Shown piece by piece: positions 3,609 to 23,040 of a DNA stretch of 30,746 bases. Position numbers and translations under genes: made by a program. The notes below the pieces were generated by a model that saw only the letters and a program-made list of their open reading frames with translations, had not been told where the DNA came from and made no database searches. Every line of letters begins with the position of its first letter. Position 1 is the first letter of the stretch. Source of the DNA: a virus; IMG/VR virus record IMGVR_UViG_3300009537_000110, positions 1 through 30,746 of that record. One strand, written 5' to 3'.

Positions 3609-3898
3609 ACGGCAAGAAGGCTGACAGCGAAGATGCGGCCTGGCTGGATGCTATTACCCAGCTGGGCTGTATTGTCTGTCGGCTGTATTATTTTGTGTTC
3701 TCTCCTGGCGAAGTACACCACTTCGATGGCGGGAGTAACCACAAGCACACAATATGTTTGTGTGATAGACACCACCGCAACGCGGGCAAAGGTTACGAAA
3801 CCCGCCATGGCAATCAATCTCGTTTCGCAGCAGCGTATGGCACTGACTGGGAACTGTACGATAGGGCAAAGCAATTAATGGGAGAAGCGATATGTTAG
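3605..3898 (+). CDS. Ref-like RecA-dependent nuclease / HNH-family protein
   Basis: I chose the GTG at 3605 (GTGA overlap with the methylase stop, GGGGGTGG upstream); a GTG at 3599 is also in frame. About 97 aa. It shows CIVCR, then EVHHFDGG, then TICLCDRHHRNAGKGYETRHGN, the His/Cys pattern of phage P1 Ref-type and related NinG/DUF968-like nucleases. P1 Ref is known to cut DNA where RecA forms a displacement loop, but this protein is much shorter (Ref is about 186 aa), so only the core is present. It lies next to RusA-like and methylase genes, consistent with recombination. Confidence 0.7.
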   Translation: MNGKKADSEDAAWLDAITQLGCIVCRLYYFVFSPGEVHHFDGGSNHKHTICLCDRHHRNAGKGYETRHGNQSRFAAAYGTDWELYDRAKQLMGEAIC

Positions 3899-4209
3899 TT
3901 AAATTACGAATACTGGGAATCGACTACGATGTTGCGTTTATGGACTCGGACTTAACCGGTTTAGCCAACGTGAATGATGCTGGTAAATGCTATAATACAT
4001 TAACAAGGATTGTTATCAGTATGGATCAATCAATTGCGTACCAGAAATGTGTGCTGCTGCATGAAATTATTGAGGCGCTGGATTACCGGCTTGAGCTGGA
4101 ACTACGGCATAACCAAATTACGTCGCTGGAATCTGGCCTGTTTCAGGTATTCAGAGATAACCCAGGATTAATACAATTGTTTCTGATGGACGAGTCGAAC
4201 ACAAAGTGA
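3892..4209 (+). CDS. Zincin-like metallopeptidase-fold phage protein
   Basis: A 105-aa protein with a beta-rich N-terminus (LRILGIDYDV) and a helix LLHEIIEALDYRLEL. This looks like the HExxH helix of small phage zincin-like proteins, but the second His is Glu (HEIIE). A second helix ends in GLFQVFRDNP, which is also typical of that family. If the metal site depends on both histidines, activity is doubtful; a related downstream residue could substitute. The function of this phage family is not established. It overlaps both neighbours by a few bases. Confidence 0.6.
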   Translation: MLVKLRILGIDYDVAFMDSDLTGLANVNDAGKCYNTLTRIVISMDQSIAYQKCVLLHEIIEALDYRLELELRHNQITSLESGLFQVFRDNPGLIQLFLMDESNTK

Positions 4210-4589
4210 ATGAGATCACCCTCGACTTACCCTGGCCACCATCTGTCAATGCCGTTTGGCGCTCAGTGGTGCGCGGCAAGTTCGCTGCGGTGTACAAAAC
4301 CGATCAGGGTAAGGATTATGAAAAGCGGGTCGGTAAGATACATATACTCATGGGCAAGCCCACACTGGGCGATGCCAGGTTGCGTGTCACGGTCGAGGCC
4401 TACCCCCCTGACCGGCGTAAGCGTGACTTGGGGAACCTGGATAAGGTCCTCATGGATTCGTTAGAGAAGGCTGGTGTCTTTAATGACGACAGCCAGATTG
4501 ACGATTTACGCTTTATTCGCAAAGAGGTAGAGAAGCCTGGAAGGGTCATTGTAAACATTCAGGTTCTGGCCAACCAGTCAGGCCTTTAA
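4206..4589 (+). CDS. rusA: RusA-like Holliday junction resolvase
   Basis: A 127-aa protein close in length to E. coli RusA (120 aa), a dimeric endonuclease that resolves Holliday junctions. It starts with the family's WPPSVNAVWR segment and has RKRDLGNLDK, D-S-L-E-K-AGV and NDDSQI (about residues 71-98), which supply the conserved acidic residues. It starts at a GTG overlapping the previous stop. With the Ref-like nuclease and the methylase it forms a recombination/DNA-processing block. A role in branch removal before packaging is inferred. Confidence 0.9.
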   Translation: MNEITLDLPWPPSVNAVWRSVVRGKFAAVYKTDQGKDYEKRVGKIHILMGKPTLGDARLRVTVEAYPPDRRKRDLGNLDKVLMDSLEKAGVFNDDSQIDDLRFIRKEVEKPGRVIVNIQVLANQSGL

Positions 4590-20702: not shown

Positions 20703-20715
20703 TGAGGTAAAAACT

Positions 20716-22006
20716 ATGGCTGGTCAATTATGGGCAGTGAGTGCAGACGGTGGTTAATACTATGGCCACCTAATTTGGCTAAATGCTGGGACGCCCTTAG
20801 AGCCGGTATACCTAAACAGTAGTTGGAAACGGCACGCTGAATGGTTTGAAAAGTTATCGGATTGGGTAATCAGCAGGAAAGATCGCTAAGTCTTACGATA
20901 GGCGAAATCCTCAACGACTAATACGCCAAACACTGAATAACAGTGAAGATAGAGTCTGAGCTTGCGTGAAAACGTAAGAGAAATCGAAGTGAAGTAGGTT
21001 TCCGCCCGAAAGGGTTAGTAGGGGGCTGTCATCCCCTGAAAGTAACAGAACGTATATGTACAGTGACGAATTGTCAGACGTACTGCGAACCGCACTACAA
21101 CCGATGACTCGGTTCCGTCAGCACTCTGATGCTAAAGATGCAACAGACAAGGGTCTGAACGCGGGCGACAAGTTCTATTGGAACGTGTACTCCGACGTTG
21201 GTACCCAAGGTCGGGAACTTGCCGAAGATAAGGCGATGCCTGAAACCAAGTACACTATCACCCAGAACAGCCTGACTATTCAAGAGGTCGGGAATAGTGT
21301 GCCGTACTCAGGTAAGCTTGATAACTTCTCCAAGCATCCTGTCAAAGAAGTCATCAACAAGGTGTTAAAGAACGATGCAAACAAGGGGCTGGATATCAAA
21401 GCCCATGCGCAGTTCAATGCAACACCACTTACTGTAGCGCCTGCGAGCGGTACATCAACAACTGCGGTCACGTTAGAGACGACGGGTACCTGTACCGTCA
21501 CAAATAACGTCGCAATGCGTAACGGTCACGTCAAGGCTATTGTCGATATTATGAAAGAACGTAATATCCCAATGTTTAACGGCCAAGACTATTTCTCTGT
21601 CGCATGGCCAACAACCTATCGCACGTTTAAAAATGATCTGGAATCAATTCACCAATATGTCAGTGAAGGCTTCCGCATGATCATGAACGGTGAGATCGGG
21701 CGTTACGAAGGTGTACGTTTCATCGAACAGACGCAAATCCCCAAGGGTGGCGCGGAAGATTCGACTACATGGAACCCCTATACCAGTACAGCTGATGCGT
21801 GGAATAACGCGCTGTCTGATTGGGCATTTTTCTTCGGTGAAGACACAGTAGCAGAAGGTATTGTTATACCTGAAGAGATGAGAGGAAAAATCCCAAGTGA
21901 CTACGGTCGTTCAAAAGGTGTCGCATGGTATGGCCTGATTGGCTACGGCTTAGTACATTCCGCCGCAGCTGATGCTCGTATCATTAAGTGGGAATCGGCG
22001 GCCTGA
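20716..22006 (+). CDS. Major capsid protein (N4 gp56-like), interrupted by a group I intron
   Basis: Two exons: 20716-20754 (13 codons, MAGQLWAVSADGG) and 21053-22006. Joining them gives G-Y-M-Y-SDELSDVLRTALQPMTRF, as in intact N4 gp56-type coat proteins, and a 330-aa product. In unspliced RNA the first exon runs straight into TAA, giving only a 13-residue peptide, and the rest would have to start at the in-frame ATG at 21056, which has no ribosome site. Exon 1 has GAGG 8 bases before its ATG. The coat has the family's middle (VGTQGRELAEDKAMPETKYT, then VPYSGKLDNFSKHPV). See the intron entry for the splice-site evidence. Confidence 0.9.
20755..21052 (+). ncRNA. Group I self-splicing intron in the coat gene (298 nt)
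   Basis: Helices paired by eye: P1 exon GGUGGU (20749-20754) with guide GCCACC (20765-20770), giving the required U-G at the 5' splice site. P10 UAUG (20761-20764) pairs with exon 2 UAUA. P3 UUUGGC (20774-20779) pairs with GCCAAA (20925-20930), P4 UGCUG (20784-20788) with CAGCA (20871-20875), and P5 GCCC (20793-20796) with GGGU (20864-20867). P7 GACU (20916-20919) pairs with AGUC (20953-20956). P8 CACUG/CAGUG is at 20931-20945. P9 CUUGCGU/ACGUAAG has a GAAA loop (20961-20978). It ends in G (21052). The core motifs resemble the Twort phage intron. There is no ORF inside. Confidence 0.93.
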
Positions 22007-22078
22007 CGCATAACTTTAACGTGTGAATCTGCCTAAGATGTTCTATTATTATAGCCTTCAATAACAGAGGGCGGCATA

Positions 22079-22579
22079 ATGAGAGCAGCGCAAAAAGAAA
22101 GAAAGCAGCAAGCAACCCGCGAATGGAAGAAGGTAAATAAGGAACGACATGCGGAGCTTGCCAGGGCTTATCGAAGGAGAAATCCGGAGAAAACCAAGGC
22201 CCAGAACCAACTTAACTATGCGGTCAGGATGGGACGCATAAAGAGACAGCCTTGTGAGGTTTGCGGATCAGGCGTGCACATACACGCGCACCACCATGAT
22301 TACAGCAAACCTTACGACGTTAAGTGGTTATGTTTTCTTTGCCATAAAGCAAAACATCCGGTGTCAGATGAAGATAAGCGGATAAAGGTGGATGACCACA
22401 AACCTGCTAGGTTGTCTGGTTCAAACAATCCGAACGCAAGCCTTTCTAACGCACAAGTCATACAGATAAGACAACTGCTTAAGATTGGCCTCAGCCAAGA
22501 GAAAATAGGTGAAGTGTTTGGAGTACACCAAGGTACTATCAGCAGGATAAAGTTAAGGAAAGCCTACAAAAACACTTAA
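22079..22579 (+). CDS. HNH-like DNA-binding protein next to the intron
   Basis: 166 aa. A basic N-terminus of repeated Lys/Arg helices (RAAQKERKQQATREWKKVN) is followed by an HNH/treble-clef module: PCEVCGSG, HIHAHHHDYSKP, VKWLCFLCHKAKH. The C-terminus holds an HTH-like helix pair (LSNAQVIQIRQLLKIGLSQE, then FGVHQGTISRIK). This layout resembles free-standing phage HNH homing endonucleases with a recognition helix. It lies directly after the intron-containing coat gene. AGAGGG site before the ATG; an intrinsic terminator follows. Relation to intron mobility is inferred. Confidence 0.8.
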   Translation: MRAAQKERKQQATREWKKVNKERHAELARAYRRRNPEKTKAQNQLNYAVRMGRIKRQPCEVCGSGVHIHAHHHDYSKPYDVKWLCFLCHKAKHPVSDEDKRIKVDDHKPARLSGSNNPNASLSNAQVIQIRQLLKIGLSQEKIGEVFGVHQGTISRIKLRKAYKNT

Positions 22580-22599
22580 ACAGTAACACCAATCGTAAT

Positions 22600-22624
22600 A
22601 AGGCCGGGTAACACCGGCCTTTTT
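22600..22624 (+). terminator. Strong intrinsic terminator
   Basis: AGGCCGG (22601-22607) and CCGGCCT (22614-22620), perfect 7-bp stem extended by an A-T pair (22600/22621), 6-nt loop, T run to 22624. Ends the coat/HNH transcript before the next head gene. Confidence 0.85.
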
Positions 22625-22644
22625 CATTTTAAGAGGTAATAACT

Positions 22645-23040
22645 ATGTACGATAATCCAATGGTCATAACGTACAACGTTGGCTCTCCGCATGACTTTGG
22701 TGCGGCCGCCGATCAGACGTTAGCAATCAAGGGTCCGAAGGGTATGACTGGTCGCGTCATTGACGTGGCTGTGTCTGCTTCGGAGATTTTCACAACCGGT
22801 GGTGATGTGCAGATGGGCATCACTGGCACGTTAGGCAAGTATGTTGATTTACCTCTGGGTACGTTGGCAGACGCCGACTGTCTGACGGCCAGTGAGACTG
22901 CGGGCGCCATCAAAGATGAGATGCTACCTGCTGATACCGATATTGTGGTGTCCTTGCTTCAGACGGGCGGTACGCCCACAGGGCAGGCACATGTCAATAT
23001 TGCGATTGCATGGGCTGGCGTAAATCCACCACTGAGCTAA
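22645..23040 (+). CDS. Putative head decoration or minor capsid protein
   Basis: 131 aa, rich in Gly, Thr, Ala and Val, predicted beta-rich (MVITYNVGSPHDF, GPKGMTGRVIDVAVSAS, GGDVQMGITGTLGKYVDLPL, HVNIAIAWAGVN). Located directly after the coat block, where decoration or capsid-stabilising proteins usually sit. GAGGT site before the ATG. The exact family was not recognised. Confidence 0.6.
   Translation: MYDNPMVITYNVGSPHDFGAAADQTLAIKGPKGMTGRVIDVAVSASEIFTTGGDVQMGITGTLGKYVDLPLGTLADADCLTASETAGAIKDEMLPADTDIVVSLLQTGGTPTGQAHVNIAIAWAGVNPPLS

Follow-up and report, generated by a model that had tools for sequence, protein, structure and literature searches.

The interval 20755-21052 of the window (the whole 30,746-nt stretch of viral DNA analysed, IMG/VR record IMGVR_UViG_3300009537_000110) is almost certainly an ORF-less group I intron in the gene of the major capsid protein (MCP). 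It belongs to a lineage that has repeatedly colonised this gene and, to judge from its sequence, is predicted to splice itself out. The assignment draws on computations of sequence, structure, covariation, a precise empty site, a conserved first exon and the distribution of introns across a hotspot gene. A cmscan of the whole window with Rfam 15 returned a match to RF00028 at 20745-20978 of the plus strand (69.2 bits, E 8.3e-16; gathering cut-off 50 bits) and no match to any other RNA family. The model stops at P9; the last 74 nt of the intron (20979-21052), consisting of three further hairpins and a tail, fall outside it. The preliminary description had proposed a compact ORF-less group I intron with these very coordinates, to be checked with the Rfam group I model. 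The significant score, the covariation, the empty-site relative and the starts of homologues show the coordinates to be right. Its small size, which had been held to be notable, is not exceptional, as introns of 228-233 nt are found in the MCP genes of relatives, and an ORF-less intron of 265 bp has been published from a virion structural (tail) gene of a different lineage, in mycobacteriophage BAKA (PMC3706429). The gene and its intron are laid out as follows.

20704-20707, plus strand: Shine-Dalgarno-like (SD-like) GAGG ahead of the true start codon of the MCP; same context in the intronless relative L009
20716-20754, plus strand: MCP exon 1, 13 codons MAGQLWAVSADGG, last base U; placed by homologue starts and by synonymous changes relative to L009
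20755-21052, plus strand: group I intron, 298 nt, no ORF; placed by RF00028, homologues and the empty-site relative
21053-22006, plus strand: MCP exon 2, 317 codons plus stop

The intron is inserted in phase 0, after codon 13. It opens with an in-frame TAA, ends in G and holds no endonuclease ORF, its longest frame being 27 aa. The longest MCP frame, 21056-22006, has ATG as its first codon. Independent evidence comes from the protein. Intronless homologues from Vibrio, Escherichia and other phages, found with tblastn, begin MAGQ.W exactly 14 codons before this ATG, and removal of 20755-21052 thus restores the gene (MAGQLWAVSADGG-YMYSDE...). Splicing of 20754 to 21053 gives the N-terminus M-A-G-Q-L-W-A-V-S-A-D-G-G-Y-M-Y-S-D-E. 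An alternative junction one base further on at both sides (20755^21054) yields an identical mRNA; we prefer 20754^21053 because only that junction has G as the final intron base. In L009, an IMG/VR contig whose MCP is 93% identical and which, like L107 below, comes from metagenome 3300009537, the gene is uninterrupted. Exon 1 differs from L009 at three third positions within the first 13 codons, and all three changes are synonymous, which indicates that the upstream exon has been kept as coding sequence. The insertion after codon 13, the restored G-Y-M-Y-SDE and the stop directly after the splice site, all of them proposed earlier from the sequence of the window, are thereby borne out by the homologues and by L009. 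The assignment to N4 gp56-like coats held only as a distant relationship: the window MCP scores 47.9 bits against TIGR04387 (N4-gp56 major capsid family), below the cut-off of 60, with relatives at 43-44, and 63.8 bits against the phrog_1357 major head protein.

The ATG of the frame 21056-22006 would also suit a degenerate, non-splicing remnant, with the coat made from an internal start and lacking its first 14 residues. We consider this very improbable. There is an SD-like GAGG before 20716 but not before 21056, and exon 1 has been retained with its SD and with synonymous changes only; the internal start at 21056 is rejected on these grounds. The core helices are intact, the score lies above the Rfam cut-off, and where relatives have their introns at codons 35, 55, 291 and 305, the gene cannot be read unless it is spliced. 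The elements of the predicted structure are these.

20749-20770, plus strand: P1, exon GGUGGU(U) 20749-20755 with guide (G)GCCACC 20764-20770; sequence, alignment, fold, covariation among sites
20774-20930, plus strand: P3, UUUGGC 20774-20779 with GCCAAA 20925-20930; fold, covariation
20784-20875, plus strand: P4 with extended P5; P4 20784-20788/20871-20875, P5 20793-20796/20864-20867 plus P5a; alignment, fold
20876-20910, plus strand: P6/P6a; Rfam alignment, fold
20916-20956, plus strand: P7, GACU 20916-20919 with AGUC 20953-20956, enclosing P8; Rfam alignment
20931-20935/20941-20945, plus strand: P8; Rfam alignment, covariation
20961-20978, plus strand: P9 with GAAA loop; alignment, fold, covariation
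20980-21038, plus strand: P9.1, P9.2 and P9.3, three 3' hairpins; fold, covariation, relatives

The core helices P3, P4, P6, P7 and P8 are all present in the Rfam alignment and the fold, and a P7.1/P7.2 insertion is absent from the window intron. The minimum-energy fold of 20740-21060 yields P1, P3, P4, P5, P6, P8, P9 and the 3' hairpins; P7 is missing from it because it is the pseudoknot strand. The pairings that had been drawn by eye (P1, P3, P4, P5, P7, P8 and P9 with its GAAA loop) were thus recovered by the alignment, the fold or both. The U-G pair at the 5' splice site is present as the wobble U20754·G20765 in P1, and the terminal G (omega-G) is G21052. P10 is possible and short, with four pairs (U21053·G20764, A21054-U20763, U21055-A20762, A21056-U20761), one of them U·G. 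Fold energy was dropped as proof of an intron: alone it is not significant (z -1.7; 7 of 100 shuffles equally good). P1, P3, P8, P9 and P9.1 covary among related introns. With helix strands picked by hand, the pairing of a strand with its own partner as against the partner from another intron was 0.94 and 0.61 for P1, 1.00 and 0.59 for P3, 0.97 and 0.41 for P8, 0.89 and 0.68 for P9, and 0.91 and 0.59 for P9.1.

In the proposed mechanism, guanosine would attack after U20754, paired to G20765 of the internal guide, in the first transesterification; U20754 would then attack after G21052 in the second, joining 20754 to 21053. The MCP would be translated from 20716 only once the transcript had lost the intron. 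On unspliced RNA the in-frame UAA may halt ribosomes at codon 14, away from the ribozyme core. Stop codons of this kind have been described in many group I introns (PMC3984707). The most abundant virion protein of the phage would then depend on a ribozyme, and its 13-codon first exon escapes gene callers.

Group I introns in coat genes are known in kind, from mycobacteriophage LittleE and lactococcal phage Tuc2009 (PMC3706429); the presence of many sites in one MCP family is the more interesting result. LittleE resembles the window in having a group I-type intron in its MCP gene, with U at the exon end and G at the intron end (PMC3706429). It differs in that its intron is 820 bp long, carries a LAGLIDADG ORF on the opposite strand and sits in an unrelated MCP, and in that splicing was proved there by RT-PCR and N-terminal sequencing (PMC3706429), whereas in the window we infer it. 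Tuc2009 (cited in PMC3706429), likened here by its description, has a group I intron in a capsid gene of a different phage and gene family. The literature searched yielded no report of introns in the MCP family of the window. Within that family, the nearest same-site intron is that of L107 (IMG/VR 3300009537_000007), which is likewise inserted at nt 39 of the coding sequence, directly after GGTGGT, and shares homologous 3' hairpins and a AAGTAACAG tail; after the hairpins, both introns read CUGAAAGUAACAG(A/G)ACG. Unlike the window intron, it is 749 nt long, has a LAGLIDADG-type ORF inside and a shorter P5. Vibrio phage 1.232.O (MG592596) also has a group I intron in a homologous MCP gene and an HNH gene downstream; its intron differs in lying after codon 305 and in having a P7.1/P7.2-type insertion. 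In the segment MG592596.1 3721-10539 (L002), the intron occupies 3821-4133 (313 nt) and the C-terminal exon 4134-4223. The GenBank MCP is annotated as truncated, its CDS stopping inside the intron and missing the C-terminal exon; introns explain such truncated MCP annotations.

The MCP gene is a hotspot for group I introns in this phage family. We gathered relatives by five scans of viral_contigs, the larger of which took the best 80 matches. Among the matches listed, at least 18 loci (the window included) have interrupted MCP genes, and at least 179 distinct MCP proteins are intronless. The 18 loci yielded 26 delimited introns at nine nucleotide positions of the MCP coding sequence (36, 39, 40, 100, 105, 165, 873, 916 and 927), with two more running off contig ends. 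A single insertion event at one site is rejected, since nine positions were found. All sites fall in codons 12-55 and 291-309; this clustering at the two gene ends may in part be ascertainment, because genes interrupted close to an end are more likely to rank among the best 80 matches taken in the larger scans. U precedes the intron and G ends it in all 26 delimited cases, the boundaries having been set with this rule in mind where frame and homology leave a freedom of 1-2 nt. Splicing gives a stop-free MCP frame in every one of the 15 reconstructed genes, 13 of which are complete. One gene (L119) holds three introns; two or three introns per gene have been published for phage polymerases and terminases (PMC11878797). 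A search with RF00028, which misses introns of 228 nt, of the whole records of 199 relatives (5.17 Mb) gave 19 matches, all in the MCP gene, which makes up ~3.8% of the bases of these records. Querying 50 records with the DNA of one 228-nt intron likewise gave matches in MCP genes only. The sequence around the insertion sites is more conserved than expected by chance (p 0.002 with 8 sites, 0.02 with 5 clusters). Group I introns were already known to sit at conserved sites (PMC2814812).

At the codon-13 site, the introns lie one nucleotide apart, at nt 40 in L061 and L014 and at nt 39 in the window and L107, the insertion position tracking which exon base is U. The L050 contig stops (1-3) at MCP codon 13/14, where the window has its intron; the assembly may have broken there at a polymorphism between intron-plus and intron-minus alleles.

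The gene downstream of the MCP bears on how the intron may have arrived. HNH genes of at least two families occupy the slot right after the MCP stop in different phages, as listed here.

22079-22579, plus strand: free-standing HNH + HTH endonuclease gene of the window (phrog_2340, 81 bits), inserted after the MCP stop and before the gene that follows
Window 22007-22645: post-MCP slot with HNH gene
L099 3719-4222: post-MCP slot with HNH gene
L042 3964-4473: post-MCP slot with HNH gene
L050 956-1477: post-MCP slot with HNH gene
L002 4272-4757: post-MCP slot with HNH gene

Collaborative homing has been described for phage systems (reviewed in PMC3984707). Here, the downstream HNH enzyme would cut the intronless MCP junction and so mobilise the ORF-less intron. 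Such a route is possible but unsupported, and we regard it as unlikely. The HNH + HTH gene lies directly after the MCP and is missing along with the intron in L009, and in 1.232.O, too, an HNH gene lies downstream of an MCP gene that has an intron. On the other hand, the HNH gene of 1.232.O is from a different family, and most intron-bearing relatives have no HNH gene in the slot. Moreover, the slot is filled by a 61%-identical HNH gene in L099 and by a different one in L042, and the MCP genes of both are intronless. These two loci rule out a strict linkage between HNH gene and intron and mark the HNH gene as an independent mobile gene. The first 60 nt of exon 2 (21053-21112) are ~70% identical to L009, most of the first 600 nt being higher (~83% elsewhere), as expected from coconversion, and AGT at Ser17 is common to the window and the intron-bearing L014. 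Of 48 intronless genes, however, 7 have AGY as well, which makes the case for a coconversion tract weak.

At least two intron lineages are distributed over the nine MCP positions. When ORF-trimmed cores are placed in a tree, the codon-13, codon-35 and codon-55 introns, that of the window among them, stand apart (UFBoot 97) from those at codons 12, 33, 291, 305 and 309 and from the common phage introns sampled. Over the aligned core, P4-P6 of the window intron shows 76-88% identity to common phage introns, and the 3' part of the window intron belongs to the codon 13/35/55 type. These affinities hint at a domain exchange that might have combined a common-phage P4-P6 with the 3' domain of the other lineage.

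Introns of one lineage occupy different MCP sites, P1 having been retargeted. Two ORF-less introns, one at codon 35 of L112 and the other at codon 55 of L119, are ~78-81% identical over their full length, and their guides have changed to match the targets TTCCGT and TTCCAT, respectively; the codon-55 guide pairs 6/6 with both. Likewise, the ORF-less introns of codons 12 and 309 make up a single clade (UFBoot 81), and each is preceded by C/T-TGGGT. These pairs would fit intragenic spread by RNA-level reverse splicing, free of an endonuclease, between sites matching the guide at about six bases, a reading that we regard as less likely than not. Against it, endonuclease-driven ectopic insertion may also have occurred, and related introns are found in other genes too, so that movement could pass via other phages: the intron in the P22-type coat gene of ctn9Y15 groups with the codon-55 introns (UFBoot 97), and the codon-12 introns are no closer to the codon-309 intron than is one from a Xanthomonas phage polymerase gene. 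The reviewed circumstantial evidence for reverse splicing comes from rDNA (PMC3984707). It is doubtful that the MCP is a dedicated landing gene in which lineages shift sites by reverse splicing via a 6-nt P1 match, with many copies endonuclease-free. The family, with its nine positions, its closely related introns at separate sites and its clean empty sites for comparison, is a natural setting in which to weigh reverse splicing against endonuclease homing for a protein-coding gene.

Two loci outside this MCP family are of note. The ctn9Y15 intron (Podoviridae sp., L381, MW202674.1 15385-18510, at about 1488-1695) is related to the 228-nt MCP introns, and the P22-type coat gene is annotated as two pieces around it. 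In Bajarodcaudo virus 2 (L379, PQ006093.1 9310-11214), intron-like sequence at 888-1190 adjoins the end of the annotated major capsid CDS.
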